This document shows positions 3,743 to 45,266 of a stretch of DNA of 64,000 nucleotides, in pieces. The notes beneath the pieces were generated by a model. The model worked only from the letters and a program-made list of their open reading frames with translations. It was not told the origin of the DNA and searched no databases. The stretch spans positions 43,081 to 107,080 of IMG/VR virus record IMGVR_UViG_3300047470_000212; one strand, given 5' to 3'. The stretch is from a virus. A program made the position numbers and the translations under genes. Every line of letters starts with the position of its first letter. The stretch's first letter is position 1.

Positions 3743-3757
3743 GTGGTGGTGCTCCGA

Positions 3758-4234: not shown

Positions 4235-4281
4235 AGAGCGGGGCTCTCTTTCTTCCGGGGTAGTTGGTGGATCGAGTAGTG

Positions 4282-6618: not shown

Positions 6619-6905
6619 TGGGAGTACTGCCGATCGAACTGCCTGCTGGTGCGCGGGCGCCGGGCGAAGGGGACGCCGGGGGTGTAGTGCCCCTCCTGGA
6701 TGTGGTCCGGGTTGGCGCACATCCGTCGCGTGCACGCGCGGTGCTTCTGGCTGCCGCCTCCGGTGATGAAGGACAGCAGGCTCTGGCCCTTGTAGGTGGG
6801 CCGGGTCGCGGTGGACTGGAAGATCAGGCAGTCGGTGTCCGGGTCCGGCTGGACGCGGTCCCAGAAGGCCTGTCCCAGGTGTTCGTAGCCATCAGGCGGA
6901 AGCAT
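6612..6905 (-). CDS. HNH endonuclease-like protein
   Basis: A 97-residue protein whose centre reads HRACTRRMCANPDHIQEG. This is the phage HNH pattern with paired cysteines and the CxNPDHI core in place of a canonical HNH. The upstream His and central Asn-Pro-Asp-His support a beta-beta-alpha metal site. It is short for a homing endonuclease, so it may be a nicking or small DNA-processing enzyme. It overlaps the helicase start and the 19-codon micro-ORF. Confidence 0.65.
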   Translation of the reverse strand: MLPPDGYEHLGQAFWDRVQPDPDTDCLIFQSTATRPTYKGQSLLSFITGGGSQKHRACTRRMCANPDHIQEGHYTPGVPFARRPRTSRQFDRQYSQC

Positions 6906-6951
6906 TGGCGGCCTCCGCCCAGGTATGAAGCCGGTTGTTCATGGGGTGCAT
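6892..6951 (-). CDS. 19-residue micro-ORF carrying the CTTCATAC motif
   Basis: The frame encodes MHPMNNRLHTWAEAANASA. Its ATG overlaps the primase stop (TGATG), and its end overlaps the ATG of the HNH gene, so it exactly bridges two genes. Nearly all of it is the LHT motif and flanks. It resembles the 15- and 28-codon micro-ORFs at 11687 and 26661. It may be a real micropeptide, a translational coupler, or a carrier for the nucleotide motif. Confidence 0.45.
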   Translation of the reverse strand: MHPMNNRLHTWAEAANASA

Positions 6952-7919
6952 CAGAACCTCGCTATGACGGATGAGTAGGCGTTGCGGACGGCGTTCTTGA
7001 GGGCGTCGGCCCCCATGTCGCCGGGGTCCTTGCAGGGGGTGCCGGAGTAGTCCAGGAACTTCAGGGACAGGCCTCGGCCGGTCCACTCCTCGCGCAGCCG
7101 CTTGCACGTCTCGGCTCCTGCGGTGTCGTTGTCGAGCGCGATGATCACGGAGTCGAAGTGGTCCCGGATCAGGGACATCTGGGCGTCGGAGACTCCGGCG
7201 CCGAAGGAGGCGAGACCGGCCTTGAAACCGCAGGCCCGGAGCCGGACGACGTCCAGAGGAGACTCAACCAGGATGGCCGTGTCGTCCTCGTAGGTATGAA
7301 GTCCGAAGAGGGTCTTCGACTTGGCCATGCCCGGCGGCCGGTTGCGGAAATAGCGCTCGTTCTTCTCCTGCCAGCCCCACAGCATTCCCGTGTCGGGGTC
7401 GCGGACCGGGATGATCCACATCTCCCGCTCGGTGTCCCACAGCACGCCGCAGGCTTCCGCGTCCTCCGGCATGAAGAACCGCTCGGCGCAGGGGGTCAGC
7501 GGCGGGGTGACGTACAGGGCCAGGCTGGCCTCGTTGATCTGCTTGGTCGTGTCGACCGTCTTGGGGTCAGCCTTCTTCGCCAGGAACTTCTTGACCCGCT
7601 CGATCCCGCCCCGCTGCCGGACCCAGGCGACCGCGTCCCCGTACGGGAGGTCGAGCATGTCCTTTACGAGGACCACGAAAGGGCCCTGGTAGCGGCAGGA
7701 GAAGCAGTTGAAATACCCAGCGTCGTAGTTTATGGAAAAGGATGGGTGCTTGTCTTTCTTTCCGGTCCGCGCCTCATGCATCGGGCACGGCATGTGAATC
7801 TCGTCGCCGCTGACCTTGTAATCCAGGCCAATCTCATCCAGGCAGGCGGTGACGTTGCCGGGAACCGGAGTTCCTACTGCGTCCCAGCCGCGCGCCTTAG
7901 AACGAACCCTGGTAGCCAT
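6951..7919 (-). CDS. dnaG: DNA primase (zinc-binding and Toprim domains)
   Basis: The protein has 322 residues. The N-terminal zinc ribbon is CPMH...CFSC (residues ~45-80). The Toprim domain is at ~210-290, with LVESPLDVVRL and ALDNDTAGAETCKRL supplying the Glu and Asp-x-Asp metal ligands. It synthesises RNA primers for the adjacent DnaB-like helicase. Length is typical of short phage DnaG-like primases lacking a C-terminal helicase-binding domain. A CTTCATAC motif lies at FGLHTYED. Confidence 0.88.
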   Translation of the reverse strand: MATRVRSKARGWDAVGTPVPGNVTACLDEIGLDYKVSGDEIHMPCPMHEARTGKKDKHPSFSINYDAGYFNCFSCRYQGPFVVLVKDMLDLPYGDAVAWVRQRGGIERVKKFLAKKADPKTVDTTKQINEASLALYVTPPLTPCAERFFMPEDAEACGVLWDTEREMWIIPVRDPDTGMLWGWQEKNERYFRNRPPGMAKSKTLFGLHTYEDDTAILVESPLDVVRLRACGFKAGLASFGAGVSDAQMSLIRDHFDSVIIALDNDTAGAETCKRLREEWTGRGLSLKFLDYSGTPCKDPGDMGADALKNAVRNAYSSVIARF

Positions 7920-9162
7920 CAGTGTTCTCCTCCTCCATGGCGAAAGGATCCTCGTTCAGTTCCTCGAACTTTCCCGTCTCCCAATCCCACTGGCAGTAGG
8001 TCTCCAGAGGCGGGCAGTTACGGGCCAGGACGACCTTGATCTTGTTGATGTTCGAGTCATCCGTGGACTCGACACCGAGAATGACGTCGGAGTCCTGGGC
8101 GAAGGAGGACGAATATCCGATGGAGTCGGAGGTAATGCCCTTCTTCTTGTTCATCTTCCATTCCAGGACCTGCGTGGAAATGACGATCGGGAGTTGCAGG
8201 TTCTTCGCCATGCGCTTGAATCCTCGGGTGAGGTTGGTAAGCGCCTGGCTGGATCCCTGAGCCTCGCCGAGTTCGTCCTGCATCATGTAGATGCCGTCCA
8301 CGAATACGATCGTCGGCCGAATGGCATCGATCTTCGACTGCACACCGGTAAGCGTGGTCGCATTCATGGAGTCCGAGGAAAGGAAGAACGAGGGCATAGC
8401 CTCAAGTTCCCGAAGGGCCCTTTCGAGTTTGTCCCACTCGGTCTTCTTGAGCGTTCCGTTCCGCAGCCGGGCATGGGAAATCCCCGCGCGGATTGCGTCG
8501 AAGCGTTCCTCCTGCTCCTCGTTGCTCATCTCGAAGCCGATGAACAGCGGGCGCTCACCGTGCAGGTGGGCAGCCATGGCGGCCAGCAGAAGCAGCGTCG
8601 ACTTACCAGCCTTCGGAGGGCCGACGAAGGTGACCAACTGCTCCTTCTGGAGGCCCTGGGTGGCCCTGTCGATCGTGTTGAAGCCGGTGGGGATACCCCG
8701 GAGCCCGTCGGGCAGGTCCTTGAGCGTGAGGTACCGCGCAAGGCGTTCCTGGCCCGTCTCCGTCAGGTCGGTGTCGCGGGCGTTGGGTACCGCCGAGGCG
8801 ATGTTGGCCAGCGTGCGGGCCAACGCCTCCATCGCGGCGGTGGCGTTGCCCTCTTCGTGTGCGTCGACCGAGTCGGCCAGGCCCTGCTCCAGCAGGGCCA
8901 AAGTATGAAGTTCTCGCAGCCGGTCGGTCAGCACTTCCATGCTGTCCTCGACCTTGACGAACCGGTACGTGGGGAAGTCGGTCTTGATCGTGGTGAGGCT
9001 CGGGACCTCGCCGTAGTTCCCCTTGTGCCGCAGGATCGCCTTGAAGACGGACTTGTTGTCCGGGTCTCCGAAGAAGTCGGGGGTGATGCCCGCGTCCGCG
9101 ACGACAGCCAGGTCCTTGTCCTGGATGACGCGGGACACGAGCAAGCGCTCGAAGTCCGCCAC
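7897..9162 (-). CDS. dnaB: DnaB-like replicative helicase
   Basis: The protein has 421 residues. A RecA-type core carries VGPPKAGKSTLLLL (Walker A) and TIVFVDGIYMMQ (Walker B). It also has GFEMSNEEQEER, the helicase H1a Glu region, and a VISTQVLEWK sensor-type strand. The N-terminal ~120 residues are helical, like the DnaB N-domain. The GTG start at 9162 overlaps the upstream TAG. The 3' end overlaps the primase start by 23 bases. It carries one CTTCATAC (RELHTLAL). Confidence 0.88.
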   Translation of the reverse strand: MADFERLLVSRVIQDKDLAVVADAGITPDFFGDPDNKSVFKAILRHKGNYGEVPSLTTIKTDFPTYRFVKVEDSMEVLTDRLRELHTLALLEQGLADSVDAHEEGNATAAMEALARTLANIASAVPNARDTDLTETGQERLARYLTLKDLPDGLRGIPTGFNTIDRATQGLQKEQLVTFVGPPKAGKSTLLLLAAMAAHLHGERPLFIGFEMSNEEQEERFDAIRAGISHARLRNGTLKKTEWDKLERALRELEAMPSFFLSSDSMNATTLTGVQSKIDAIRPTIVFVDGIYMMQDELGEAQGSSQALTNLTRGFKRMAKNLQLPIVISTQVLEWKMNKKKGITSDSIGYSSSFAQDSDVILGVESTDDSNINKIKVVLARNCPPLETYCQWDWETGKFEELNEDPFAMEEENTDGYQGSF

Positions 9163-9605
9163 TACATTGCTCCGATCAGGGTGGTGGGTACGGCCGGGAG
9201 CATGCGTCCCTTGCTGCCGTAGATCAGGTGGTTCTCGTTGTCGAAGACGGCCGCTACGTCAGGCATGTGGGCCAGGCGGCGGGCCAGCTTCTTGGGGTCC
9301 TCGCACCACACGCGGCCGATGGGCAGGCCCTCGATGTCCAGGCGCCATTCCAGGGCCTCGGCGAACTCGTCACCCAGGTACGTGATGACGTCGACCGAGT
9401 AGCGGTAGCGCCAGACCGTGTCCCAGATGACGTGGGCCAGCGGCTCGTTGATCTCGTAGGCCTTCACAGCGCGCTTCCACTGGTGCGCCCGGCGGGCCAC
9501 TGCTTCACCAGCTCGGGCTCGCGCGGTGGGCAGGTTGCCCAGCAGTCCTTCGAAGACCAGGACCATGCGCGGGGAGACCTCGTTGCTTATGTCCCCGCCC
9601 TGCAT
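9162..9605 (-). CDS. Replication-module protein, unknown function
   Basis: A 147-residue mixed alpha/beta protein (MQGGDISNEVSPRMVLVFEG...) with a helical middle and a beta-rich C-terminus. The TGATG and TAG/GTG overlaps at both ends place it tightly between a small protein gene and DnaB. No family is recognised. Confidence 0.7.
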   Translation of the reverse strand: MQGGDISNEVSPRMVLVFEGLLGNLPTARARAGEAVARRAHQWKRAVKAYEINEPLAHVIWDTVWRYRYSVDVITYLGDEFAEALEWRLDIEGLPIGRVWCEDPKKLARRLAHMPDVAAVFDNENHLIYGSKGRMLPAVPTTLIGAM

Positions 9606-9850
9606 CAGGCTCGCTCCGCTTCGGCGCGGAGCCAGATATGAAGTCGTCCGTGCCGGAGTTCTGTGATCACACGGTGCTCGCGCACGCGGAATCCGAGGGC
9701 GGCAGCCTTGTAGACCGCGAGGAAGAGCAGCCGCTTGGCGGTCGCACGCTGCTCGGGGAACCGTCCGGTGATCGTCGCCGGGATCTCGTCCTTGTAGAGA
9801 ACCGACAAGACCTCGTCCTCGAAGGGGAGGACCATCTGCTCATGCGGCAC
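9605..9850 (-). CDS. Small protein of the replication operon
   Basis: An 81-residue protein. The GTG start at 9850 is preceded by GGAGGAGATCGCC and overlaps the end of the DnaC-like gene. The N-terminus MPHEQMVLPFEDEVLSVLY contains a QxxLxF-type segment (QMVLPF) reminiscent of sliding-clamp or SSB-tail binding peptides; that is inference. The C-terminus RLHIWLRAEAERA carries CTTCATAT. Confidence 0.6.
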   Translation of the reverse strand: MPHEQMVLPFEDEVLSVLYKDEIPATITGRFPEQRATAKRLLFLAVYKAAALGFRVREHRVITELRHGRLHIWLRAEAERA

Positions 9851-10499
9851 GGCGATCTCCTCCGACGACGGTGATGTGGGTGAAGGCGCCCTGGATGAAG
9901 GAGCCCATCGAGGGGTTGTATGTGTCCCCCCACTTGCTCGGCGGGACGTTGGAGGTGACGAGGGTCGGCCGGGCCTCGCGGTGTCGAAGGCGCAGCAGGT
10001 CGTCCAGCAGGCCTTCGGCGTAGCCGGACTTGGTCTTGTGCTCCTTGCCGACGTCGTCGAGGAGGAGGACGGGCGCCTTCTCGGCCGCGACGATCTTGTC
10101 CGTGATCTCCCACCAGCGGGCAACGGCCTCGGGCTCGTGCCGGTCCTGGAGACCCATCCGCTCGATGGACAACTTCACGTAGTCCGAGTAGGCCAGCCAC
10201 GCCACGGGCAGGCGGCGGCCGAAGTAGACCTCCAGCAGCGTGGACGTGGCGAGCGTGGTCTTGCCTGTGCCGGGCGGCCCTACGACCAGCAGCCCCTTGC
10301 CGATGGTGCTCCAGTCGGCCGGGTACTCGTTCAGGGGGCGCTTGTCCGTGACGTAGTGGTCCCGGAGGTTGTCCACGAACTCCTGGCAGACGGCCTTGTG
10401 CGGCGAGTCCGCCAACGTATGAAGACGCAGGTGCTTGTAGTGCGCCGGGATGCCGTACTCCTTGAGCCGCAAGGCGTGGACCCGGGGGTCAGTCGCCAT
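9840..10499 (-). CDS. DnaC-like AAA+ helicase loader
   Basis: The protein has 219 residues. The ATPase core shows VVGPPGTGKTTLAT (Walker A), VLLLDDVGKEHK (Walker B) and LVTSNVPPS (sensor 1). The length and N-terminal helical domain match DnaC/IstB-type loaders that place DnaB on DNA. The ATG at 10499 follows AGGAGGTATCCAC. Its promoter (10538-10566) carries a GGAAGCGATAAC box next to the -35. CTTCATAC encodes RLHTLADS near the N-terminus. Confidence 0.88.
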   Translation of the reverse strand: MATDPRVHALRLKEYGIPAHYKHLRLHTLADSPHKAVCQEFVDNLRDHYVTDKRPLNEYPADWSTIGKGLLVVGPPGTGKTTLATSTLLEVYFGRRLPVAWLAYSDYVKLSIERMGLQDRHEPEAVARWWEITDKIVAAEKAPVLLLDDVGKEHKTKSGYAEGLLDDLLRLRHREARPTLVTSNVPPSKWGDTYNPSMGSFIQGAFTHITVVGGDRRAA

Positions 10500-10537
10500 G
10501 TGGATACCTCCTGGTGGTGGTGGGTTCAACGTTCAGG

Positions 10538-10566
10538 AGGCTACCACAGTTATCGCTTCCTGGATA
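10538..10566 (-). promoter_or_regulatory. Promoter with GGAAGCGATAAC operator-like box
   Basis: Minus-strand -35-like TATCCA and -10 TAGCCT with a 17-base spacer. The first 12 spacer bases are GGAAGCGATAAC (10549-10560). The same arrangement recurs at 57780-57808. The position suggests an operator covering the promoter. Confidence 0.55.
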
Positions 10567-10583
10567 CGTCTTCGGAACGCGTA

Positions 10584-10613
10584 AGGGGCGGGCTGCCGAA
10601 GCAACCCGCCCCT
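10584..10613 (-). terminator. Terminator after the initiator gene
   Basis: GC-rich hairpin: AGGGGCGGG pairs with CCCGCCCCT around a short loop, 10 bases beyond the initiator stop and before the loader promoter. Confidence 0.7.
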
Positions 10614-10622
10614 GTGGGTCGG

Positions 10623-11690
10623 TCAGGACCAGTAGTCCTCGTTGAACCTGTTGTTCTCCACCTCGTCGACCTTGTCAGCCTTGCCCAGTCGCTGGGTCAG
10701 CAGCCCACGGGCGGCAAGGAAGTCCTTCCAGGCGACCACGTTGTCCGAGCGCTGCCAGGAGGTGGACCAGTAGGTGATGATCATCTGGCGTACCTCTTCG
10801 CGCCCAAGGCCCTGGGCCATCCACCGGCCGAAGGTCCCAGTCAGGGCTCCGAGGTTGGTGGAGCCGGGGACCGGGTGACCTACTTCCCCGGCCCGGTGGT
10901 CGAAGAATTCCGCCAGTTCCTCCGAAGGCCTCTTGGAGCGCTTCTTAGGAGTTCGCCGGGCCGGAGGGGCCAGGTCGCCATCCGAAGCCGGGAGACGGGC
11001 GGCCAGGGACTCTCCTGGATCACCGTCACCGATGGCCTGGGATACCACGTAGGCCGGATCGAGTTCCCGCTCGGCCTGCTCCTGCTCCAAGGCCTCCTGC
11101 TTCCGGGACTTCCTCTTGCCGCCAGGACCCCGGAGGGGGCGTACCGCATTCCAGCCCTTGGCTCCCGGCCTGGGAGTCTCCTCGGCATCGTAGAGATCCG
11201 ACCGCGCCGACTGGCGCGGTGGAAGAGACGTAGTCTCTTCTATTTCTCTAGTAGTACTAGTTAGGTAGTTAGGGGTTGGGTGCACTCCAGTGCAGGGTGC
11301 AATATTTGCAGGGTCCTCTGGAGTTGTTATGTCACAACTACCTTCGTCGACCCCTGCATTATTTGCAGGTGTAGTTCTTGCACCCTTCTCGGGCTCCGGA
11401 ATCCACTCTTCGATGGGGAGAATCCGGCGCACAGCGGACTTGTACCGCAGGGACTCCAGAGGCCTCTCCTCGTCGGAAACGGACTCGATGATGCGACGCT
11501 CCTCCAGGTCCCGCAGGACGTTGTAGGTCTGCCGCTCCTTGATGTTGGCCTTGCTGGCGATGGTTGGTACTGAAAGCCAGCACATCCGGAAGTCGTCATC
11601 CGCTGCGTCGGCCATGGCCAGCAGGACCAGTCGGGATGCAAGTCGGGTGTGCTTGCTCCGCATCACCTCGCCCATGATGATTACGCTCAC
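10623..11690 (-). CDS. Replication initiator-like winged-helix protein
   Basis: The protein has 355 residues. A winged helix lies at the N-terminus (residues ~5-75: SVPTIASKANIKERQTYNVLRDLEERRII), followed by a long disordered basic/acidic linker. A C-terminal helical domain (GTFGRWMAQGLGREEVRQMI...) resembles DnaD/initiator C-domains. It sits directly upstream of the helicase loader. The linker-coding DNA (11230-11390) is AT-rich with iteron-like repeats, as in lambda O. The GTG start at 11690 overlaps the TGA of a 15-codon micro-ORF. Confidence 0.7.
   Translation of the reverse strand: MSVIIMGEVMRSKHTRLASRLVLLAMADAADDDFRMCWLSVPTIASKANIKERQTYNVLRDLEERRIIESVSDEERPLESLRYKSAVRRILPIEEWIPEPEKGARTTPANNAGVDEGSCDITTPEDPANIAPCTGVHPTPNYLTSTTREIEETTSLPPRQSARSDLYDAEETPRPGAKGWNAVRPLRGPGGKRKSRKQEALEQEQAERELDPAYVVSQAIGDGDPGESLAARLPASDGDLAPPARRTPKKRSKRPSEELAEFFDHRAGEVGHPVPGSTNLGALTGTFGRWMAQGLGREEVRQMIITYWSTSWQRSDNVVAWKDFLAARGLLTQRLGKADKVDEVENNRFNEDYWS
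11230..11390. other. Candidate replication origin: AT-rich iteron region inside the initiator gene
   Basis: TGCAATATTTGCAGGG (11298-11313) and TGCATTATTTGCAGGT (11355-11370) are near-identical direct repeats. GGGTGCA recurs at 11278 and 11295, and inverted at 11378-11385. An AT-rich tract with CTAGTAGTACTAG precedes them. Such composition is exceptional for this genome and matches an intragenic origin in an initiator gene. No functional proof is available. Confidence 0.5.
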
Positions 11691-11734
11691 TCGGCGACTC
11701 CGAGGAAGCGATAAGTATGAAGCGATAGCGTCAT
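11687..11734 (-). CDS. 15-residue micro-ORF carrying the CTTCATAC motif
   Basis: The frame encodes MTLSLHTYRFLGVAE. Its stop overlaps the initiator GTG (GTGA), a classic coupling arrangement. The same DNA contains two direct copies of TATCGCTTC flanking the octamer. A leader peptide regulating the initiator gene is possible. Confidence 0.45.
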   Translation of the reverse strand: MTLSLHTYRFLGVAE

Positions 11735-11785
11735 GGTAATGTGCTCTCTATCTCGGGGTTTGTGGTGGGCCTCGGGGTGTGGTGG

Positions 11786-11845
11786 GCAAAGGCCCCCGGC
11801 AGTGGCTTGAAGGTCTTGAACCTCGCCAGCGCCGGGGGCCTTTGC
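11786..11845. terminator. Strong terminator after the AT-hook protein gene
   Basis: Perfect 15-bp arms (GCAAAGGCCCCCGGC at 11786-11800 and its complement at 11831-11845), starting 6 bases beyond the stop of the leftward gene. Confidence 0.8.
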
Positions 11846-11850
11846 GTTAC

Positions 11851-13080
11851 TCACTCCGAGTCGAGTTCGAGGCCCTTCTCCTCGATCTCCGCCCGGGTCA
11901 ACTGCACGACGGTCTGTCCGGCCGGGATGCGGCCACGGCCGCGACGGGTGTAGTTGCCCTCGTCGTCGACCAGGTAGGCGAACGTCTTGTTCTCGTCACG
12001 CGGGCGACCACGACGCCGACGGGGAGAGGACTGCTCCTCCTGGTCACCCTCCGGCTCCTGGTCACCCTCCGGCTCCTCGGCCGCCTCCGGCGCCTTCTGC
12101 TTCTGCTCGCCGGTCTCCGGCAGCGTATGAAGCGCCTTGCGCAGCAGTTCGGTCAGCGGTCGCTCGCGCACGTCGGCCTGGTTGATGATCGCGTTGCGCT
12201 CGTCCTCCAGACGGAAGGAGTTGTAGGCACCCTCCAAAGCGGCGCGTATCAGGAGCAGGTCGATCTCGGCGTCCGGGACCGGCTTGTCGGTCTCCTTCTG
12301 CTGCGCCTTGTGCTGCGCGCGGGCGATCGTCTCCTGCAAGGACTCCTTCTCCTCCTCGACAGGCGCCTCTTCCTCGACCGGCTCGGCGGCCTTGCGACCA
12401 CGACGGCGGGGCTCCGGCTTCGGCTCCTCCTCCGGCTTGTCCTCGGTCAGCGGCTCCTCTTCCGGCTCGGCCGTCTCCGGCTCGGCGCGACGGCCACGGC
12501 GACCGCGACGGCGGGGCTCCTCCGGCTCGGGCTCCGGCTCGGGCTCCGGCTCGGGCTCCGGCTCCGCCTCGGGCTCGGCGTGGGTCTCGGCAGCGAAGGA
12601 GATGTCGTCGAGTCCGGCCGTCAGGTCCTTGGCCGTGATCCCAGCGGCCTCGGCCGCGTCCAGGAGGAGTTCGGCCTCCTCGCTGCCCTCGGAACCCCAC
12701 AGCAGGATCACGTGGGCGTCGCCCTGACTGTCGGCGTTCTTGAGGAGTTCGACGATCCCGGCGGTGACGTTGGCAGTCTTCACGACCTCCTCGGCGTCCT
12801 TGAGGATCTTGTCGACGGCCCGGCTCTTCTCGCCGTCGGTGACCGCGACGAACGGGATGTCGGCCCACTCGGACCACTCCAGGACGGTCTCCAGTCCGTC
12901 GGACAGGTGCTTCTTGGTGATCGGGAGGATGAGCGTGATCTCGCGCTCGGAGGGCTCGGGGTAGCCGTCCTTGTCTTCCTCGCCGAGGCCCACGAAGTCG
13001 TTCAGGAGGGCCTTGACGTTGTCCAGGTCGGTGGCGGCGTCGCCAGCGAAGGCGAGTGCGATGGGCTGAGTGCTGCTCAA
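11851..13080 (-). CDS. AT-hook, Pro-Glu-rich DNA-binding protein
   Basis: The protein has 409 residues. The N-terminal ~165 residues look folded (alpha/beta, ...ITLILPITKKHLSDGLE...HVILLWGSEGS). A Pro-Glu repeat tract follows, then basic AT-hook-like motifs (RRRGRRGRR, RRRGRKA, RRRRGRPRD) and a C-terminal domain with GRGRIPAG, reminiscent of the Lsr2 RGR-I-P signature. It may bind AT-rich DNA and act as a phage nucleoid-type protein. The TTG start at 13080 is chosen for its GGGAGCA site. It carries CTTCATAC (KALHTLPE). Confidence 0.6.
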   Translation of the reverse strand: MSSTQPIALAFAGDAATDLDNVKALLNDFVGLGEEDKDGYPEPSEREITLILPITKKHLSDGLETVLEWSEWADIPFVAVTDGEKSRAVDKILKDAEEVVKTANVTAGIVELLKNADSQGDAHVILLWGSEGSEEAELLLDAAEAAGITAKDLTAGLDDISFAAETHAEPEAEPEPEPEPEPEPEPEEPRRRGRRGRRAEPETAEPEEEPLTEDKPEEEPKPEPRRRGRKAAEPVEEEAPVEEEKESLQETIARAQHKAQQKETDKPVPDAEIDLLLIRAALEGAYNSFRLEDERNAIINQADVRERPLTELLRKALHTLPETGEQKQKAPEAAEEPEGDQEPEGDQEEQSSPRRRRGRPRDENKTFAYLVDDEGNYTRRGRGRIPAGQTVVQLTRAEIEEKGLELDSE

Positions 13081-13158
13081 GTCTGCTCCCGATGTGGTGT
13101 GTTTGCCGCCCTTCCGGCGACAGGAGAAGACGTTACCGGTTACGGCTTCTAAAAGCAA

Positions 13159-13187
13159 GAAACCCCCGCTTCGCAAGCGAGGGTTTC
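13159..13187 (-). terminator. Terminator after the holin-like genes
   Basis: A stem of about 13 bp with one mismatch (GAAACCCCCGCTT / AAGCGAGGGTTTC). On the minus strand it is followed by the T-rich tail TTGCTTTTAG. It separates the late block from the replication block. Confidence 0.75.
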
Positions 13188-13201
13188 AAAGCGTTTGACA
13201 A

Positions 13202-13486
13202 CTAGGGCAGGTCAGGAACCCTGCGACCGGTGGCCGGATGCCTACGAGGAAGCCGCAGCGCCGGGGCCACCGAACCACCCCGGACAGGGATGTGCAGCAG
13301 GGCCACCACTCCGGCCGCAGCCGCAGCAGTCAGCCAGGGGACGGGAACACGCTGCGCCTCGTAGGCCAGGCCGACAACCACGAGGGGCTGGAGCCAGGCC
13401 GGGAGGGTGAACGGGAGCACGACGACCAGCCACTCCCACGCGGTGAACGTGGCGAATGCGATCAGCAGGAGCCGGAACCAGTCCAT
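13202..13486 (-). CDS. Small membrane protein (holin/lysis accessory candidate)
   Basis: A 94-residue protein with hydrophobic segments at ~5-25, ~28-42 and ~52-66, and a basic proline-rich C-terminus. It lies directly downstream of another membrane protein at the end of the tail genes, a usual site for lysis functions. The fold is not diagnostic. Confidence 0.55.
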   Translation of the reverse strand: MDWFRLLLIAFATFTAWEWLVVVLPFTLPAWLQPLVVVGLAYEAQRVPVPWLTAAAAAGVVALLHIPVRGGSVAPALRLPRRHPATGRRVPDLP

Positions 13487-13489
13487 AGG

Positions 13490-14020
13490 TCAGACCGACC
13501 TCGGGCCGAGGGGAGACTGCGGGAGCGCCTGGGTGGTGATGGTCTCCTGGGCGACCAGGGCTGGCTTGACCGCACGCTGGAGCGCAGCGTGCAGGGCGAC
13601 GGCGATCTGCTCGATGGCCTCGGGACTCAGGGTGGCGCCGCTGACCTGCGCCGGGGGCTCGACTGCCTCCGTCTCCTCGACGTACTTGGCCAAGGTGGCG
13701 GGCGATATATGAAGCCGGTTCTCGGTCTCGGTGATCAGGGCGTTCTGGAGCCAGCCGAACCACGCGTACTTCTTGAGCAGCGAGTGGTAGAAGGCGGTGC
13801 CGGTCACCCAGGCGAGGAAGGACGCGACGACGGCCGGGGCCCAGTAGAAGTGCTGGGGGTGGGCCTGGTAGACGGCCCAGAAGCCCGTGGCGACCGCGAG
13901 GACGGCATGCGCGGCACCCTTGACCGTGGCGTTGGTCGACGGCCGGGTGAACAGCGCGACGATGGCTGGCAGGGCCAGGCCGACGACGAGGGAAGCCGCG
14001 TCGGCGTAGTTGGTGAGCAT
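13490..14020 (-). CDS. Holin-like multi-spanning membrane protein
   Basis: A 176-residue protein with hydrophobic segments at ~8-27, ~33-52 and ~60-80, and a soluble C-terminal half. The size, the topology and the position after the last tail fibre gene suggest a holin. CTTCATAT encodes NRLHISPA just after the membrane domain. Confidence 0.55.
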   Translation of the reverse strand: MLTNYADAASLVVGLALPAIVALFTRPSTNATVKGAAHAVLAVATGFWAVYQAHPQHFYWAPAVVASFLAWVTGTAFYHSLLKKYAWFGWLQNALITETENRLHISPATLAKYVEETEAVEPPAQVSGATLSPEAIEQIAVALHAALQRAVKPALVAQETITTQALPQSPLGPRSV

Positions 14021-14043
14021 GCGTGTCCTTTACGGGTTCGTGG

Positions 14044-17240: not shown

Positions 17241-17246
17241 GGCGGA

Positions 17247-19778: not shown

Positions 19779-19819
19779 GCTTGCATTCTCCCAGGAATGC
19801 CTACCGAGATTGCAGTTCC
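19756..19819. repeat. Perfect 23-bp inverted repeat over the gp25-like start
   Basis: Arms at 19756-19778 and 19797-19819 are perfect complements with an 18-base loop. The left arm is the first codons of the gp25-like gene, and the right arm is an inverted copy of them. In the minus-strand RNA the loop presents TCCTGGGAGAATGCAAGC, containing the Shine-Dalgarno, while the ATG is at the stem. It looks like an inverted duplication. Confidence 0.9.
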
Positions 19820-19828
19820 GTTCTCAGA

Positions 19829-20128
19829 TCAGAAGCCGGGGAACGCTACCTGCCCGTCGGCCAGCACCTGGTCGTTCTGTGCGGCGACGTCTACGTCTAT
19901 CTGGTGCCTGGCGGCGTTGTAGTCCTGGGCGGCCTGGTTGTAGAGCGGCGAGGCAGCGTTCTGGTTCACGTTCTGCTCCCACGACAGCCAGTTGTCCCTG
20001 ACGTAGGACTTGAACGCGTACTCCAGGAGTTCCTGGTCGCCCAACTGAGAGTCGACGTAGATGCCGTGGAAGGACGCTGCTACTCGGGGCCAGAATTCGT
20101 CGGGAATAGAGATCGTGATGTCGGTCAT
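19829..20128 (-). CDS. Small baseplate-region protein
   Basis: A 99-residue helical protein (MTDITISIPDEFWPRVAASFHG...). The opening resembles small phage proteins with an IPDE(F/Y) amphipathic start. Gln-, Asn- and Ala-rich helices follow. It lies between the fibre fusion and gp25. Function unknown. Confidence 0.65.
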   Translation of the reverse strand: MTDITISIPDEFWPRVAASFHGIYVDSQLGDQELLEYAFKSYVRDNWLSWEQNVNQNAASPLYNQAAQDYNAARHQIDVDVAAQNDQVLADGQVAFPGF

Positions 20129-20144
20129 TAAAGGGACGTCCTCA

Positions 20145-23100
20145 CTACTTTGTGTACGTGATTTTGAGTTGCGGCGGGTGGCTGTCTCCGACACCGCTGA
20201 AGATGCCGTAGTAAGTCTTGTCGGTGCTGGAGCCGAGATCTCCACCGAGCGTGATTCCACGATACGGGGTAGCGGAGTTCCAACCTGAATTCCAGGACGA
20301 CGGCAAAGTAACCCACTTGCCTGCACCAACCGGCCACGATGAAACGGTCAGGTTGTTGCTGGAGGCCATTCCGGACGCAACGCCAGTCTGGGTGTGCACA
20401 CCGATATGCGCGGTACCGCCACCGTTGTAATACCAGTGGCTGGCGTAGAGGTAGATCTCGACCTTGGAGACCTTCGCCGTGGAGCCCATGTCTGTGAACG
20501 GCTGGGTACCGAATCCGACCATCGACTTCTGGGTGCCCCAGGTTCCGGAGTAGTAGCCCTGGTACATCGTGCCGTCGGTGTTACCTGCGTTACCGAATCG
20601 CCGGGACCACACCGCGTTGTAGGTCTTGGTGTACGTCTTCGTCGCGGTGACCGCAGCGCCGCCCGTGTTGTAGACGCCGCCCTCGGGTACGGCCGGGCCG
20701 ATGTCCTCGACGTAGAAGTCCGAGGACTGCGCGGGGCTGTAGTTGCGCAGACCCCAGCCGGTGGCATTGCCCGAGTGGATGGCCCCTACCCACAGGATCC
20801 GGTGATCGCCTGGAGCCAGGGCCGTGTTCGACGCGTAGAGACCGCCTGCGTCGGACGAGCACACGATGATGCCCTCGACCACGCACGTGCCATCCGAGCC
20901 CGCGCCGTCGTAGAACATGCCCATGTTTCGAGCAATGGTCGTGTCAGTGACCTTCGGGCTTACCCCGTTTGGGTTGATGGTCGTGCATCCGTTAAGAACC
21001 GTCGTCGTGCCGGAGGCGTTCACGTACGTCTCCAACTCCTGCACACCGGTCCCGCCGTTGAGGTCGAACTGCGACCGGGCGACGATGCGGTACATCCGTC
21101 CCTCGACGGCCGTGAAGGCCAGCTCGATGATGCCCGTGTCGGTGGTGTAGTAGGTCGTGGCTGTGGGTCTTCCCGTCCACCCTCGCTCGTAGGTGACCAT
21201 TCCCCATGGCAGGTTCCACAGCAGGTCGGAGAGTTCCTTGCCCTGGTACCAAATCTGACCGATGGGGTCGTCGCTGGCCGTGCCGACAGGTCGCTGCGGG
21301 GTCCATAGGGAGTTGAAGGTGCCGACACCGTTGGAGTCGATGGCCGCCGCACCGCCTGCGAATGTCGCGTGGGCGTTGTCCGTGGTCATCTCGGTGGCCA
21401 GCGTGCCGTCCGGCCCGTACAGGCGCAGGCCGCCAGCGGAGATGTCGGTGGCGCCGTAGCCCTCGCGCATGACGATGACGTCGTCCACGCAGATGTACGA
21501 GAACGCGGTGGTCGAGAGACCGTAGGAGCCTGGGTTCAACTGCTGGAAGGAGACGCGGCCCCACACCGCACCGGTCGGGATGGTGACCTCGAAGATGTCC
21601 TCGGTGTACGAGGCGGCGTTGTACGTGATGTCGTTGACGCCCGCCATCTGGTCGGTCCAGGTGACGTTGTCCGGGCTGGTCTCAAAGGTGACGTGTAGGT
21701 GGCCGATGCCGTAGTACCAGTACCGGAGCATGTAGGTCTCGGCCGCGACGACCGGGAAGGCGTTGCTGGTGACGGTCGCGGTGCCGGTGTTCTTCACTCC
21801 CAGGGCCGCCTTGCCCTGGCCGGAGCGCGCGGGGTAACCGCCCTGGGCAATCTCAATCTTGGCCGCTGTGGTGGCCAGAGTGCTGTCGCTCTGGGTGAGG
21901 GTCCAGCCGGTGCGGGAGGTGTCCTCGAAGCCGCCGTTGGTCACCAGGTTGCCGGAGACCGCACCGAGGGAGATGTGCTGGGCGTTGACGTTGCCCAGGT
22001 TGATGTTGCTGGAGCCCACCTGCCCCGTCTCGACGACCTCGATGGTGAAGATGTCGAGTTCGGCGGTGCCTGTGCCACCCGAGTAGTTGAGGTACAGGCA
22101 GGGGCTGATGTACTTCACGTTCTGGTGAAGCCTCATGGGCGAGGTCGGGTTGGGGTTGGGACCAGCGTCTCCGGTCGCGGCCGTGCCCTTGATATATCCG
22201 GTGTACGTAATCCACCCGGAGCCTGTGGTCAGGGGTGTGGCCCTCACGGCTGCGTAGGCCTGGCTGCCGGTGCTGTTGGCGCCGGAGATGTTGACGAGGG
22301 TCACACCGTCGGCTGCGATGCCTGTGACACCTGCGTAGACGGTCTGGTTGGTGCCTGGGGTGGAGTTGTCGACGGTCTGCCGCACCCGGGCGGTAACGCG
22401 GTAGGTCACCCCCGGGTCGAAGGGTATGAGCAGGTCCGGCCGACGGGCGCCCTGGATGTATCCGACGCAACGCATGACAGTCCCGCCGGAGGCTGCGTCG
22501 CTGACGCTGACGGTGGTCATGGTGCCGGTACCGGATGGGCCGTTGACCCACTTGCTCGCCGAGTTGCCGAAGTCGTAGAACTTCTGGCCGACGGTGCCCT
22601 GGAGTCCGGCACTGAGTTTATCGACGGTCAGCGTCCCGGCCTTGATGCTTGCGGCGTCCAGGTTGGTCACGCTGACCAGGCTGGCGTCGATGGTGCCGGT
22701 CTTGATCGAGCCGCCGCTGATCGTGGTCGTGGTCGGGATGGTTCCGTTGCTCAACTGCCCGGCGGGTACGCTGACCCCCGCGCCAATGGAGCCGGTGACT
22801 GTGCCCGCGTTCGTGGCGGTGGTCGCGGAGGTAGCCGAGGTGGCGGCCGGTACGGTGCCGGTGACCTGGGTGCCTGGGACGGCGACTCCGGCGCCGAGAG
22901 ATCCCGTGACGGTCCCTGCGCTGGTTGCCGAGGTAGCCGTGCCTGCCGTGGTCGCACTGGCGACCGGGCCGCTTACGTTCCCACCACCGATGACGAGGTT
23001 GGTCGCGTCGATCTGGGTAGCCGTCAACTTACCGACGGTGATCTTGCTGGCGTCGATGCTGGCGATGACACCGCTCTGGGCCGTGATCGTTCCGGCCGCC

Positions 23101-24503
23101 ATCTGGTTGGCCGTGATCGTGTTCGCCGCGATCTGGTTGGCCGTGATGGTGTTGGCTGCCAGCCGGTCGCCCGTGATGGACCCGGCCAGGATCTGCGTGG
23201 CGGTGAGCGTCCCCGAGGTGATCTTCGAGGCGTCCAGCGATCCGGTCGCGATGCGTGCAGCGTTGAGCGTGCCAGCGTTGATCTTGCCTGCGTCAAGGTT
23301 GGCGATCTTGGCGTTGTTGATGGCGGCGTCGGCGATCTGAGCGGTGCCGACTGCGAGGTTGGCGATCTTCGCCGTGCCGATCGTGGCGTCGGCGATCTGC
23401 GCGCCGGTTACGGCGTTGTTGGCGATGTTGATCGTGCCGACGGCCAGGGCGGCCAGCTTCCCGGCTTCGATCGCACCGTTGGCAACGGCCTGCGCTGTCA
23501 CCGCGTTGGCGGCCAGCTTGGTGTCGTCGATGGCGCCGACCGCGATCTTCGCTGCGGTCAGTTGGCCGTCGAGGATGTCCTGTGCGACGGCCTGCTTGGG
23601 GGTGTCCGAGGCGTATCCGGACGGTGCCGAGGCGACGCCCACCTTGGAGTAGGCGACCAGCCGGTAGTAGTAGGCGTTGCCGTAGTTCTGTATGGAGTCG
23701 TAGGTGAAGTCAGCGCCGCGCAGTGTGGCGACGGTGACCGGGTTGGAAAACGCCGTGACGGTGTCCCGCTGCACCTGGACGCGGTCGAAGATGGCGGGCA
23801 TGGCTGTACCGGTGGTGTCCAGGCCGTTCCACGTGACGCGCAGGCCTCCGAGCACGCCGACGACAGTCGGAGTGGACGGGACCGGAGGAGGCGTCGTCGA
23901 GGATGCGGTGACGATGTTCGCGGTCGCCCAGAGAGAGGCGTTACCGCTGGTGTCGATGGCCTGGGCGCGGACGTAAAGAGTCCGCCCGGTATGAAGTCCG
24001 TCGTAGACGATGAGGGTGTCTTCGGTGGCTGACCCGCCAGCCCAGTTCGTGCCGTCGTAGGAGGTCTGCACGAGGTAGTGCGACATGTCGGTGAGGGTGG
24101 TGCCGTCCTGGTTCTCCGTCGGTGCGGTCCACATCGCCGTCACGCTGGCCGAGGTGTCGCCCTCGGCGGTGACGTGCTGAACGGTGGTCAGGGAGAGGGC
24201 GGTCGGTTCCTTGGGAGGGAGGACGTCGGTGCCGTCGGTCGGCAGTTCGTCGACCTGGTCCTGGACCTCCTTGATGCCCAGCGGTGCATAGACCGGCCTG
24301 GTGATGTCACCGCCGGAGAACTGCACCCACACCGACTGGCCGACGGGCGGCACGGTATTGGTGGGCGAGGACGGAACCGACCAGGCGCTCTCCGCATTGC
24401 CCAGAACCTGCGGGATCAGCAGAGTGACCCGGGCCTCGTTCAGAGGGTCCTGGTTATTGGCGACGCTCGCCCGGTACATGCCCAAAATGGGCTCAGCCGA
24501 CAT
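20145..24503 (-). CDS. Spike-fibre fusion: OB-fold baseplate spike, FN3, repeat shaft, glycan-binding domains
   Basis: The protein has 1452 residues. Residues ~5-90 (GMYRASVANNQDP...VTLLIPQVLG ... GQSVWVQFSGGD) look like the gpV/gp5 OB-fold of a central spike. Residues ~105-310 contain two FN3-like domains. Residues ~315-620 are a long imperfect repeat (GTINIANNAVTGAQIADATI, GSLDASKITSGTLTATQILA) expected to form a beta-helical or trimeric shaft. Carbohydrate-binding jelly-rolls follow (~850-1010), then a beta-rich C-terminal domain. It fuses functions usually split between spike and fibre. One CTTCATAC lies in FN3 (DGLHTGRT). Confidence 0.75.
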   Translation of the reverse strand: MSAEPILGMYRASVANNQDPLNEARVTLLIPQVLGNAESAWSVPSSPTNTVPPVGQSVWVQFSGGDITRPVYAPLGIKEVQDQVDELPTDGTDVLPPKEPTALSLTTVQHVTAEGDTSASVTAMWTAPTENQDGTTLTDMSHYLVQTSYDGTNWAGGSATEDTLIVYDGLHTGRTLYVRAQAIDTSGNASLWATANIVTASSTTPPPVPSTPTVVGVLGGLRVTWNGLDTTGTAMPAIFDRVQVQRDTVTAFSNPVTVATLRGADFTYDSIQNYGNAYYYRLVAYSKVGVASAPSGYASDTPKQAVAQDILDGQLTAAKIAVGAIDDTKLAANAVTAQAVANGAIEAGKLAALAVGTINIANNAVTGAQIADATIGTAKIANLAVGTAQIADAAINNAKIANLDAGKINAGTLNAARIATGSLDASKITSGTLTATQILAGSITGDRLAANTITANQIAANTITANQMAAGTITAQSGVIASIDASKITVGKLTATQIDATNLVIGGGNVSGPVASATTAGTATSATSAGTVTGSLGAGVAVPGTQVTGTVPAATSATSATTATNAGTVTGSIGAGVSVPAGQLSNGTIPTTTTISGGSIKTGTIDASLVSVTNLDAASIKAGTLTVDKLSAGLQGTVGQKFYDFGNSASKWVNGPSGTGTMTTVSVSDAASGGTVMRCVGYIQGARRPDLLIPFDPGVTYRVTARVRQTVDNSTPGTNQTVYAGVTGIAADGVTLVNISGANSTGSQAYAAVRATPLTTGSGWITYTGYIKGTAATGDAGPNPNPTSPMRLHQNVKYISPCLYLNYSGGTGTAELDIFTIEVVETGQVGSSNINLGNVNAQHISLGAVSGNLVTNGGFEDTSRTGWTLTQSDSTLATTAAKIEIAQGGYPARSGQGKAALGVKNTGTATVTSNAFPVVAAETYMLRYWYYGIGHLHVTFETSPDNVTWTDQMAGVNDITYNAASYTEDIFEVTIPTGAVWGRVSFQQLNPGSYGLSTTAFSYICVDDVIVMREGYGATDISAGGLRLYGPDGTLATEMTTDNAHATFAGGAAAIDSNGVGTFNSLWTPQRPVGTASDDPIGQIWYQGKELSDLLWNLPWGMVTYERGWTGRPTATTYYTTDTGIIELAFTAVEGRMYRIVARSQFDLNGGTGVQELETYVNASGTTTVLNGCTTINPNGVSPKVTDTTIARNMGMFYDGAGSDGTCVVEGIIVCSSDAGGLYASNTALAPGDHRILWVGAIHSGNATGWGLRNYSPAQSSDFYVEDIGPAVPEGGVYNTGGAAVTATKTYTKTYNAVWSRRFGNAGNTDGTMYQGYYSGTWGTQKSMVGFGTQPFTDMGSTAKVSKVEIYLYASHWYYNGGGTAHIGVHTQTGVASGMASSNNLTVSSWPVGAGKWVTLPSSWNSGWNSATPYRGITLGGDLGSSTDKTYYGIFSGVGDSHPPQLKITYTK

Positions 24504-25641
24504 TGATATCCTCCAGAAGACTCGACTCCCAGAACTGCCGATTTCTCAGGACAGCCGGGACGGTGTCGAATTTGAAACGCTTGTTCGCGTCGCTTCGAAA
24601 TGTTACCGAGTAAGGTTGGTCTCTTTCTGCATCGACGGTTGTGGTGAACACCCATCCCGAGTTGCTCTTGTCCCGGTTGATGATGTGTTTGGTGCCGGTA
24701 ACCATCCATCGACCCGTGCGATCTGAGGAAATGGAGTTCCCTGTGACAGCGACCAGAGATCCCGGGACGATCTTTGCCGTCCCATACAGCGTGGCCTGCA
24801 TGGTGATCCAGCCACGGGAAGCCAGCGTGCGGGCCTCCATAAGGGCCTGCGCGTCCGCGTAGTTGTCGACGGCCCTGGCGGTCGATATGGAATTGAGGAA
24901 TGCAGACGCCCCGGTATTCGACGAAGACGAAGCCTTGATCACCCGCCCGGTCTTCGCGTCCAGTCCGGAAATGCTGCTGGTGCCCGTCGTCCCGTTCTCG
25001 CGGGGAACCATGGTGCCCGTCAGGATCGACATCTCCCGCAAGGTGTCCATAACCCCGGGCTGCTGATTCTTGGAGAACACAGGGATGTTCTGCGCGTTCT
25101 GCCCCACAAGGAGAATGCGCGGGTCGAGGAAGTAGAGCGTCGTCCCCTCCACCCAGAAACGGAATCCGACTTCGTGCGCCAGGTCCTGGAGGAGTTTGAA
25201 ATCGCTCTGCCCGCTCTGCGCCCAGTAGGTAAGGCGCCGAGAGGACGGGGAGATGACTGTGCGCAGCCCGTTCTGTCGGCCCACCTGGCGGGCGATGGAG
25301 GTGGGGCTGACGTTCTTCCAGGACCGGGTCCGCTGGATGTTCAGCGGGAGGGTGGTGCCGATACACACGTACCGCGTGGTGACCGTCTGGGCACCGCCGC
25401 TGGCCAGGACGCTGGAGTGGTGCACGTAGCCGTACCAGCGGACCATGTCGTTGGGGCTGCGGCCGTAGTCGAGAACCACCGGAGCCAGCTCGGGGTAGGC
25501 CGAGCTGTTGGCGCTGGTCGTGACGTCCACGAGCGCCATGGAGTGCACGCCGTATCCCTCGCGGACTTCGACGCGCTTGATGAGGTTGTTGATGCGGTTG
25601 CCGGAGATGGTCAGGTTGGTTACTGGCGTCGACTCAGGCAT
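24493..25641 (-). CDS. Baseplate hub protein, gpD/gp27-like
   Basis: The protein has 382 residues. The pattern DFKLLQDLAHEVGFRFWVEGTTLYFLDPR is the signature of late-control gpD/VgrG hub proteins. NVSPTSIARQVGRQNGLRT precedes it. The ATG at 25641 overlaps the LysM-like gene stop by 8 bases; the longer frame is not favoured. It holds the spike encoded just downstream. Confidence 0.82.
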   Translation of the reverse strand: MPESTPVTNLTISGNRINNLIKRVEVREGYGVHSMALVDVTTSANSSAYPELAPVVLDYGRSPNDMVRWYGYVHHSSVLASGGAQTVTTRYVCIGTTLPLNIQRTRSWKNVSPTSIARQVGRQNGLRTVISPSSRRLTYWAQSGQSDFKLLQDLAHEVGFRFWVEGTTLYFLDPRILLVGQNAQNIPVFSKNQQPGVMDTLREMSILTGTMVPRENGTTGTSSISGLDAKTGRVIKASSSSNTGASAFLNSISTARAVDNYADAQALMEARTLASRGWITMQATLYGTAKIVPGSLVAVTGNSISSDRTGRWMVTGTKHIINRDKSNSGWVFTTTVDAERDQPYSVTFRSDANKRFKFDTVPAVLRNRQFWESSLLEDINVG

Positions 25642-25906
25642 TCGGGATCCTGACAATCTGGCCCGGCGTAAGGACCGTCCAGTCCAAGATCTCGGGATTG
25701 GCGTCGGCGATGTGCCACCACATCCGGGCGTCGCCGAAGTACTGCACGGCGAGCAGGTCGATACGGTCGGAGCCGTTCAACTGGTGGTAGGTGAAGTTGA
25801 ATGCCCACTCCCGCTGCTGGGATGGCACGAGGGTGAGGTTCGTCCCGCGTCCGGAGGCGACCAGCGTGAGCGTGGATTCTGCATACCGGGAAGTAGCGGA
25901 GATCAT
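25634..25906 (-). CDS. LysM-like tail protein X (baseplate/tube linker)
   Basis: A 90-residue protein. The ending (FGDARMWWHIADANPEILDWTVLTPGQIVRIPNA in outline) is the LysM-like fold of gpX/gp53 proteins that clamp tube and hub. It sits directly between the CIS-tube-like gene and the hub gene. Confidence 0.8.
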   Translation of the reverse strand: MISATSRYAESTLTLVASGRGTNLTLVPSQQREWAFNFTYHQLNGSDRIDLLAVQYFGDARMWWHIADANPEILDWTVLTPGQIVRIPNA

Positions 25907-26661
25907 CGTCCGGCCTTTCCGTTCGCGCCCTTGGCGAATTCGTCCGGCGTCAGTCCGGCCGGGAGCCTGCCGAAGGACACGAACTCCCCGCCGCCCTTTG
26001 GCTTCGGAAGCAACTGCATGGTGATGCCGACTTGGCAGCGGGACGGGATCATCTGCTGGGTCCAGTGGGTGTACTGGATTTCCAGGTCCTGGATGACCCC
26101 GTAGTAGTTCAGGGTGTCGCCGACGATGAGGTAGACCGGGACGTAGAGCATGGGTCCGGCCGCATCGAAACTGAACTGACCCTTTCGGAAGGACTTCGTG
26201 GAGTCGCCCTTGGCGTCCTCCCCCTCACCGGTTACCGCTACCGACGCGGAAATACCGGTGATCTTGTAGAGCAGGGAGATGTCCCAGCCCACGCCGAGAG
26301 CAGGCACGAATACGTTCTCGGCGCCGGACACCCGGGAGGAGTCCCACATCTCGTAGGTGCGGTCGAACAGCAGGTTGAACTGGACCGTCTGCTGCAACGG
26401 CATCAGGAAGTCCTTTGCCGTCACGTCGTTCGGGTTCAGTGCGTTGTCGTCTGCCTGGACCGCCGAGTTCACGGAGTGGGAAACGTTCAGGACGCTTGGG
26501 TTGTAGAGGAAGTTGCACCGGTAGCGCACTCCGTCGACCGGCTTTTCCTGGATGATGAAGCCACGGCTCAACTTCTTCCCGCCGCCCACAAGGGACTGGA
26601 GGCCGGGGAGTTTCGTTATCCGTGGGTCGAAGGAGCCGTTGTCCTGGATCCGCGTAGCCAT
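25903..26661 (-). CDS. Tube-end/baseplate protein resembling contractile injection system tube proteins
   Basis: The protein has 252 residues. The start (FIIQEKPVDGVRYRCNFLYNPSVLNVSHSV in outline) matches the N-terminal pattern of CIS tube-initiator proteins of the Afp7/Pvc7 type (x-F-x-F/Y-N-P-S-x-L). A beta-rich core and a disordered tail follow. Its ATG overlaps the 28-codon micro-ORF stop. The assignment is from pattern and neighbours. Confidence 0.6.
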   Translation of the reverse strand: MATRIQDNGSFDPRITKLPGLQSLVGGGKKLSRGFIIQEKPVDGVRYRCNFLYNPSVLNVSHSVNSAVQADDNALNPNDVTAKDFLMPLQQTVQFNLLFDRTYEMWDSSRVSGAENVFVPALGVGWDISLLYKITGISASVAVTGEGEDAKGDSTKSFRKGQFSFDAAGPMLYVPVYLIVGDTLNYYGVIQDLEIQYTHWTQQMIPSRCQVGITMQLLPKPKGGGEFVSFGRLPAGLTPDEFAKGANGKAGR

Positions 26662-26747
26662 CAGACACCCACCGCAAAGTCGAAGCGGCGAGTGTTCCGG
26701 AGGCGGGGCCCAGGGCCCCAGGTATGAAGTCGGTCAGTGAAAGCCAT
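26661..26747 (-). CDS. 28-residue micro-ORF carrying the CTTCATAC motif
   Basis: The frame starts MAFTDRLHTWGPGPRLRNTR and is basic. Its ATG overlaps the tape-measure stop (TAATG), and its TGA overlaps the ATG of the next baseplate gene (TGATG). It therefore fills the gap exactly, as at 6892 and 11687. It may be a coupler or a micropeptide. Confidence 0.5.
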   Translation of the reverse strand: MAFTDRLHTWGPGPRLRNTRRFDFAVGV

Positions 26748-44998: not shown

Positions 44999-45032
44999 GC
45001 TTCCTCCTGGTGCGGGGTTGGCTGCGTGTCCG

Positions 45033-45107: not shown

Positions 45108-45266
45108 ATGGAAACCAACGCGCTTCATACCTCGGGGCTCACCGAGCCCCAGAGCAACATGACCGTCAGCCTGACGAACAACCGCATGGAGGACAGCCGC
45201 TGGAACCGACTCCTCACCATCCTCTTCACCCCGCAGGACGAGGACGCCCAGGCAGCCACCGCCTAG
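45108..45266 (+). CDS. 52-residue protein with the only rightward CTTCATAC motif
   Basis: It starts METNALHTSGLTEPQSNMTV; the rest is charged and ends in Asp/Glu/Ala. It is preceded by TTGAGAAGCGATAGTAGGG. It carries the octamer on the plus strand, still on its own coding strand and in the same frame as all others, which shows the motif follows the gene and not genome polarity. Function unknown. Confidence 0.6.
   Translation: METNALHTSGLTEPQSNMTVSLTNNRMEDSRWNRLLTILFTPQDEDAQAATA

Follow-up and report, generated by a model that had tools for sequence, protein, structure and literature searches.

Three micro-ORFs and a strand-biased octamer

The stretch analyzed here (the window) is a 64-kb part of the 107,080-bp virus record IMGVR_UViG_3300047470_000212; coordinates refer to the window unless stated otherwise, and its coding strand is mostly the minus strand. 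The structural genes of the record are distant kin of those of Streptomyces phages of the BRock/GiJojo group. Three of its gene junctions, one of them next to the primase gene, hold micro-open reading frames (micro-ORFs) of 19, 15, and 28 codons, and each encloses one copy of an octamer that reads CTTCATAC on the coding strand (sites 6930, 11722, and 26729) (Table 1). The first-pass annotation had placed these intergenic copies in tiny frames whose stop codons overlap the next start, and both points hold at all three sites. At the primase junction the micro-ORF begins within the upstream stop (TGATG, with its ATG at 6951), and its TGA overlaps the next ATG; an inner ATG at 6942 would give 16 codons.

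The octamer occurs 21 times on one strand of the window and once on the other, where 0.75 copies are expected (~28-fold excess), and the variant CTTCATAT contributes five more copies. The strand split over the whole record is 39 to 1. The sole opposite-strand copy sits within a gene of opposite orientation, meaning that copies are found on the coding strand only. The complete element, an in-frame CUU-MAU-AYN (M is C or A) followed from ~2 nt later by a stem-loop, is carried by a group of uncultured soil phages akin to Streptomyces phages, with about 30 to 47 copies per genome of ~70 to 110 kb. Counts of CTTMATAC range from 24 to 37 in records of 65 to 110 kb and from 10 to 19 in three records of 47 to 67 kb. 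In the cultured Borockvirus relatives (BRock, GiJojo, and pSt2308), motif counts are at background level only.

Whole records carry exclusively the CAT or exclusively the AAT class of the motif. In called genes of CAT phages, copies fall into the three phases at 183:3:3, compared to 0.29:0.21:1.23 predicted from codon composition, and in AAT phages at 110:0:0. Only the CAT class provides independent evidence of frame, because the other phases of the AAT motif give a stop or a TTA codon. A frame test by third-position GC content, which does not depend on called ORFs, assigned 383 of 418 distinct copies to frame 0. For 28 of the 35 copies outside the main coding frame, a frame-0 ATG or GTG lies at most seven codons away with no stop in between, compared to 1 and 0 copies in the other two frames and 15% at shifted positions. 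Stems are missing from the four off-phase copies that have no in-frame start, as expected of chance matches. The strand bias, the phase bias, and the in-frame micro-ORFs rule out chance as the source of the octamer.

Micro-ORFs across relatives

The micro-ORFs around copies outside the main coding frame are 6 to 28 codons long, such as VVRLNT, MTAALHT, MKTIRLHT, MRLHTRAVA, and MTRLNTCPRKGDHR, each ending at a stop codon. The 11722 unit is present in 9 genomes of both classes; its ATG four codons ahead of the site, its spacing, and its TGA overlap are kept, while its peptide and hairpin vary. The 26729 unit is found in six genomes as micro-ORFs of 9 to 28 codons with unrelated peptides and a constant site and stop/start overlap. 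At the primase junction, other ORFs, several of them without sequence relation, carry the site in eight other genomes: CAT phages have the micro-ORF of G000 or else another short gene that bears the site close to its start, and AAT phages have VTLNTCPREGDPR or MTRLNTCPRKGDHR, each followed by a stop. A RecA-like gene outside the window (a label assigned by reading the protein sequence) is preceded in CAT phages by MRLHTYGGPC, whose stop overlaps the gene start; in AAT phages the same gene has ATG-x-LNT as a fused N terminus.

Since these micro-ORFs are either conserved or re-evolved with unrelated sequence, it is the translated site, and not a particular peptide, that appears to be under selection. 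The synteny of the gaps in related phages, proposed earlier as a check, bears this out, as the same junctions carry site-bearing micro-ORFs or short genes, and it supports the suggestion of one shared frame of translation for the intergenic copies and of a translational role. The first-pass annotation had also held that relatives lacking the micro-ORFs with no change in downstream expression would speak against such a role. This applies only by half: G003 and G013 have no site-bearing ORF at the primase junction, so that any one copy can be spared, yet the in-frame rule still stands.

TABLE 1 Micro-ORFs, sites, stem-loops, and candidate factor genes in the window
Feature	Position	Strand	Remarks
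Micro-ORF, 19 codons	6892..6951	-	MHPMNNRLHTWAEAANASA, then stop; between primase and next gene
Site CTTCATACC	6922..6930	-	
Stem-loop, 9 bp	6895..6919	-	2 nt past third codon
Micro-ORF, 15 codons	11687..11734	-	MTLSLHTYRFLGVAE, then stop; TGA overlaps GTG of HTH_36 gene
Site CTTCATACT	11714..11722	-	
Stem-loop, bulged stem	11684..11710	-	3' of site; orthologs have simpler stems
Micro-ORF, 28 codons	26661..26747	-	MAFTDRLHTWGPGPRLRNTRRFDFAVGV, then stop; TGATG overlap with next gene
Site CTTCATACC	26721..26729	-	
Stem-loop, 7 bp	26704..26720	-	Immediately 3' of third codon
Site	2102..2110	-	In frame, DNA polymerase gene
Site	2890..2898	-	In frame, with stem-loop
Site	3629..3637	-	In frame, with stem-loop
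Site	4516..4524	-	In frame
Site	7293..7301	-	In frame, primase gene
Site	8902..8910	-	In frame, DnaB-like helicase gene; 8-bp stem
Site	9635..9643	-	In frame, 12 codons ahead of a stop overlapping the next ATG
Site	10416..10424	-	In frame, AAA-ATPase gene
Site	12124..12132	-	In frame
Site CTTCATATA	13706..13714	-	In frame; ninth base A
Site	23988..23996	-	In frame, tail protein gene; conserved in 11 genomes
Site	26903..26911	-	In frame, tail protein gene; with stem-loop
Site	30736..30744	-	Codon 5 of baseplate-hub gene; CAT or AAT depending on class of phage
Site CTTCATATC	34855..34863	-	In frame
Site	38178..38186	-	Codon 3, with stem-loop
Site	45123..45131	+	Codon 6 of METNALHT..., with stem-loop; sole plus-strand copy, in plus-strand gene
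Site	48087..48095	-	In frame
Site CTTCATATC	50334..50342	-	Last three codons of HicA-like gene
Site	55231..55239	-	In frame
Site	55548..55556	-	In frame, with stem-loop
Site	56214..56222	-	In frame, 13 codons before stop, just upstream of 66-aa gene
Site	56989..56997	-	In frame
Site	57520..57528	-	In frame
Site	63229..63237	-	In frame, polynucleotide kinase gene; phage specific, relatives have VEAFL at equal length
HicA-like protein, 80 aa	50331..50573	-	Candidate cognate factor (RNase)
66-aa family member (64 aa here)	56000..56194	-	Candidate cognate factor; predicted beta-beta-alpha-beta fold

Sequence core, hairpin, and a conserved leader

Three features go beyond the first-pass annotation: the stem-loop 3' of the octamer, a second motif class (AAT) among relatives, and the conservation of a ninth base. 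An alignment of 411 copies (323 distinct) from 12 genomes gives the core CTT(C/A)ATA, followed by Y and then by C (89%), T, or G. Among stem-bearing copies the first seven bases are near-invariant, with only two single variants, base 8 is Y, and base 9 is C, T, or G. The wobble bases are fixed, the flanking residues are free, and the encoded L-H/N-T residues are constant. AAT phages with a conserved LHT avoid spelling it as CTTCATAC. The polynucleotide kinase gene reads RDALLHTWLVRG in the window and RNALVEAFLGDG in homologs, showing that the copy arose by substitution with no change of length.

A stem of at least 5 bp starting exactly 11 nt after the first C is found in 40% of copies, compared to 3% of shifted controls, and stem starts are in clear excess at 9 to 11 nt. 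Orthologous copies keep a stem, allowing any geometry, in 67% of cases with 8 to 11 of 24 bases changed and in 59% with at least 12 changed (controls, 0 to 30%). On a ribosome that holds CUU in its P site and MAU in its A site, the stem would start at position +12, which is the geometry of frameshift-stimulating hairpins. At the gathering threshold, Rfam gave no match at the sites or at the leader described below, only tRNAs and a cyclic di-AMP (c-di-AMP) riboswitch elsewhere. The element with its frame lock, its hairpin, and its micro-ORFs is established at the sequence level, as are the split of genomes into CAT and AAT and the two genes, described below, that follow it.

One copy lies in a conserved leader outside the window (L053 of G000:1-20000, 3454-4241, minus strand), which has three covarying hairpins upstream of a DUF2637-like/helix-turn-helix (HTH) gene and is present in 9 genomes. 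This copy (G000:4241) provides the last three codons, L(H/N)T, before the stop of whichever ORF lies upstream, a long gene or a micro-ORF. The site is also the 5' arm of the first hairpin, pairing with AGGTATK, and the partner base tracks the class in 9/9 genomes: six CAT phages have G there, and three AAT phages have T. Between this hairpin and the start of the DUF2637-like/HTH protein come two further hairpins. Nine pairs of the leader structure are changed on both sides; the mean of shuffled alignments is 3.4, 0 of 500 shuffles reach 9, and slid controls give 0 to 2.

Candidate factor genes and genomic context

The class of the site differs among relatives even at one conserved position: the baseplate-hub site at 30744 is CTTCATAC in some and CTTAATAC in others. 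Which gene tracks the class? G003 and G013 are CAT phages about equidistant from both classes (median difference of 1.6 points over 323 ORFs for G003 and of 1.8 points over 257 ORFs for G013), and in both the ORF most biased to CAT phages is the HicA-like gene (32 and 28 points), followed by the gene of the 66-aa protein (29 and 18 points). The HicA-like allele has a 14-aa insertion in all AAT phages with coverage and in no CAT phage with coverage. An AlphaFold2 model of the HicA-like protein shows an alpha-beta-beta-beta-alpha fold at moderate confidence (mean predicted local distance difference test [pLDDT] score of 72). The protein has an invariant GGNH with the conserved His of the RNase family and matches PHROG 353, "toxin," with an E value of 7e-4. 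Its gene stands alone between its own leader and a terminator-like hairpin, and no HicB was found next to it. The 66-aa protein, predicted confidently (pLDDT of 84), has archaeal ribosomal protein LX chains among its nearest folds (probability up to 0.97; E values of 0.19 to 0.49), a weak hint from the model that it might bind the ribosome; it could be a partner of the HicA-like protein.

A search for relatives of the HicA-like protein in phage records or host genomes gave nothing useful. A distant 100-kb phage (L128, IMGVR_UViG_3300012942_000038) has a HicA-like gene of about 50% identity. The idea that the L(H/N)x at the C terminus of the HicA-like protein is pure motif was set aside; it is partly a protein feature, as L128 has GLNV there, spelled CTGAACGTC. 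The leader upstream of the HicA-like gene is conserved, and a long hairpin (CATCCCGGGTACC...GGTACCCGGGATGTTT) that closely follows the gene (50230-50331, minus strand) is conserved in both classes.

The window encodes a tRNA-His(gtg) (58657-58742, minus strand) that is 86 nt in length and has a long variable arm (class II), C73, and G at -1; its sequence is akin to phage tRNA-Leu(caa), and it is present in only some CAT-class relatives. It was rejected as the factor, being missing from the CAT phages G003, G013, and G016. A tyrosine integrase gene (43922-45118, minus strand) adjoins a large serine recombinase gene (45389-47473, plus strand) with an additional DUF4096-like segment, an arrangement that points to a temperate phage equipped with two recombinases. 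An NlpC/P60 hydrolase gene (59423-59929) is preceded by a c-di-AMP riboswitch (RF00379, 71.9 bits; 59915-60049, minus strand), and the protein encoded at 60652-61188 (minus strand) has an Lsr2-type DNA-binding domain at its C terminus.

Proposed mechanism and alternatives

Our tentative reading, to which we give somewhat less than an even chance, is that a phage factor, probably the HicA-like endonuclease, may read the signal on ribosomes in the act of translation and limit the use of phage mRNA. From the sequence patterns we infer ribosomal reading or pausing, recognition, the identity of the factor, cleavage, and purpose. A ribosome with CUU in its P site and CAU or AAU in its A site would run into the stem-loop and be held there. 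A phage-encoded factor would then recognize the paused A site, the prime candidate being the HicA-like RNase, perhaps with the 66-aa protein. The likely outcome would be A-site cleavage or arrest, cutting being suggested by a HicA-type RNase; the mRNA of the factor would also be limited, since the HicA-like gene itself ends in a site. The micro-ORFs would put a translated copy at gene junctions with proteins unaltered, and their stop/start overlaps would keep the next gene coupled. The purpose may be to limit phage expression or set its timing, with immunity in lysogens as a possibility because the phage carries both a tyrosine integrase and a serine recombinase.

Several observations weigh against this proposal. 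About 40% of copies have no simple stem at the expected place, and within ortholog groups compensatory changes at fixed geometry are not above controls, because stems are rebuilt and not kept pair by pair. The hub-gene tree needs just 2 to 3 class switches, for which reason a claim of multiple switches was dropped; two contrasts underlie the link to the factor, which could also be a product of linked history. The nearest structures to the HicA-like model are 1whz and other HicA chains, with weak E values, and the HicA profile PF07927 scores 18.3 bits, below the Pfam cutoff of 27. The LX-like match of the 66-aa protein is likewise weak by E value. The motif is absent from the 20-kb locus of the HicA-like gene of L128, which may use another signal. 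Finally, Escherichia coli HicA is translation independent according to a title cited in PMC10865869, and such an activity by itself would not explain the frame lock.

The frame, hairpin, and micro-ORF evidence also fits with a phage factor that does not cut and instead binds a translated pause or coupling element, so as to protect, license, or time mRNAs, with the HicA-like protein as an RNA binder. In the leader, a regulator-like gene is preceded by a hairpin that takes in the site, as in a translation-dependent switch. The best-tracking gene, however, has an RNase-family fold and a conserved His, and we consider this alternative unlikely, though it deserves weight. Somewhat less likely is an extended form of the endonuclease proposal, in which a ribosome-associated HicA-type nuclease with an LX-like docking partner would recognize the dispersed in-frame signal of codons plus hairpin and silence the mRNAs of the phage itself and of incoming kin during their translation, as a translational counterpart of stoperators. 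CAT and AAT would then be immunity classes, and the sole purpose of the micro-ORFs would be to let this system read a transcript.

Stoperators themselves, as DNA sites at which a prophage repressor halts transcription and with CAT and AAT as immunity groups, are a doubtful explanation. Dispersed sites oriented to transcription with matched specificity classes typify Cluster A mycobacteriophages, whose stoperators are tens of short, near-identical sites in one orientation with factor-matched variants (PMC6550527, PMC9283540), and the present phage has integrase and recombinase genes. Many near-identical sites in one orientation are indeed found here, but they are not independent of frame. A Cluster A stoperator is a 13-bp DNA site to which a repressor binds, whereas the present element is codon phased, is followed by an RNA stem-loop, often lies inside genes, and is carried on micro-ORFs. 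Neither a frame nor a stem-loop nor a micro-ORF is required for a DNA site. Moreover, the tracking genes are RNase-like and LX-like and include no HTH repressor.

A pause limited by tRNA, in which CUU, CAU, and AAU are rare codons and a phage tRNA-His or tRNA-Asn controls or senses translation at the sites, would suit phages that have tRNA-Asn and, in some CAT members, an unusual long tRNA-His; it is improbable given the three CAT phages lacking tRNA-His and the fixed bases beyond codon identity that it leaves unexplained. Programmed frameshifting or bypass at the site is very improbable. The hairpin has the spacing of -1 frameshift stimulators, CUU is the +1 slip codon of prfB, and, as in dnaX-type stimulators and byp/gene 60, a ribosome paused on a defined codon would have a stem-loop at its mRNA entry. 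Unlike in those systems, there is no frame change and no skipped sequence. Frame 0 runs through most sites, and immediate -1-frame stops (the trivial TAA) occur in AAT phages only, with +1-frame stops not unusual, making frameshifting unlikely. Copies swap residues without length change, as in the polynucleotide kinase gene, so nothing is bypassed or inserted, and no skipped inserted sequence was seen. A conserved peptide motif (LHT/LNT), to which the constant L-H/N-T residues would be owed, a mobile insertion, or chance is the least likely explanation of all, given fixed wobbles with free flanks, copies made by substitution, the avoidance of CTTCATAC for LHT in AAT phages, and the ~28-fold excess.

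Relation to known systems and implications

The proposed endonuclease would have partial precedents. RegB of phage T4 is a phage RNase structurally related to RelE/YoeB, is proposed to act within the ribosome, and cuts its own transcript (PMC3014915). The site that ends the HicA-like gene would imply similar self-targeting, but RegB is not HicA-like, and its GGAG sites are mainly Shine-Dalgarno sequences, follow no frame rule, and are inhibited by structure. Rae1 (YacP) of Bacillus subtilis is a ribosome-dependent mRNA endonuclease with S1025 as a substrate, according to Leroy 2017 as cited in PMC11780869. It is a precedent for a ribosome-dependent nuclease with a short-ORF substrate, differing from the present candidate in nuclease family and in having few sites. 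The action of Rae1 on the short ORF S1025 is reportedly frame dependent, and we know of no genome-wide dispersal or hairpin rule for it. With HicAB, the candidate shares the predicted alpha-beta-beta-beta-alpha HicA fold and the conserved GNH motif; it differs in that no HicB was found next to its gene, in its subthreshold profile match, and in the translation independence reported for canonical HicA in the title cited above.

To our knowledge, the open-licence literature describes no system with a genome-wide signal that has to stand in one frame and that, outside genes, is placed on micro-ORFs that keep the signal and not the peptide. We offer the mechanism as a hypothesis. If true, it would reveal a new layer of phage gene control and a natural sensor of translation itself, and it would give a probable role to an orphan HicA-type protein, with the two motif classes representing a clean specificity swap. 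It would also be a warning that very short ORFs at gene junctions, which are usually ignored, can matter for reasons beyond the peptide that they encode.

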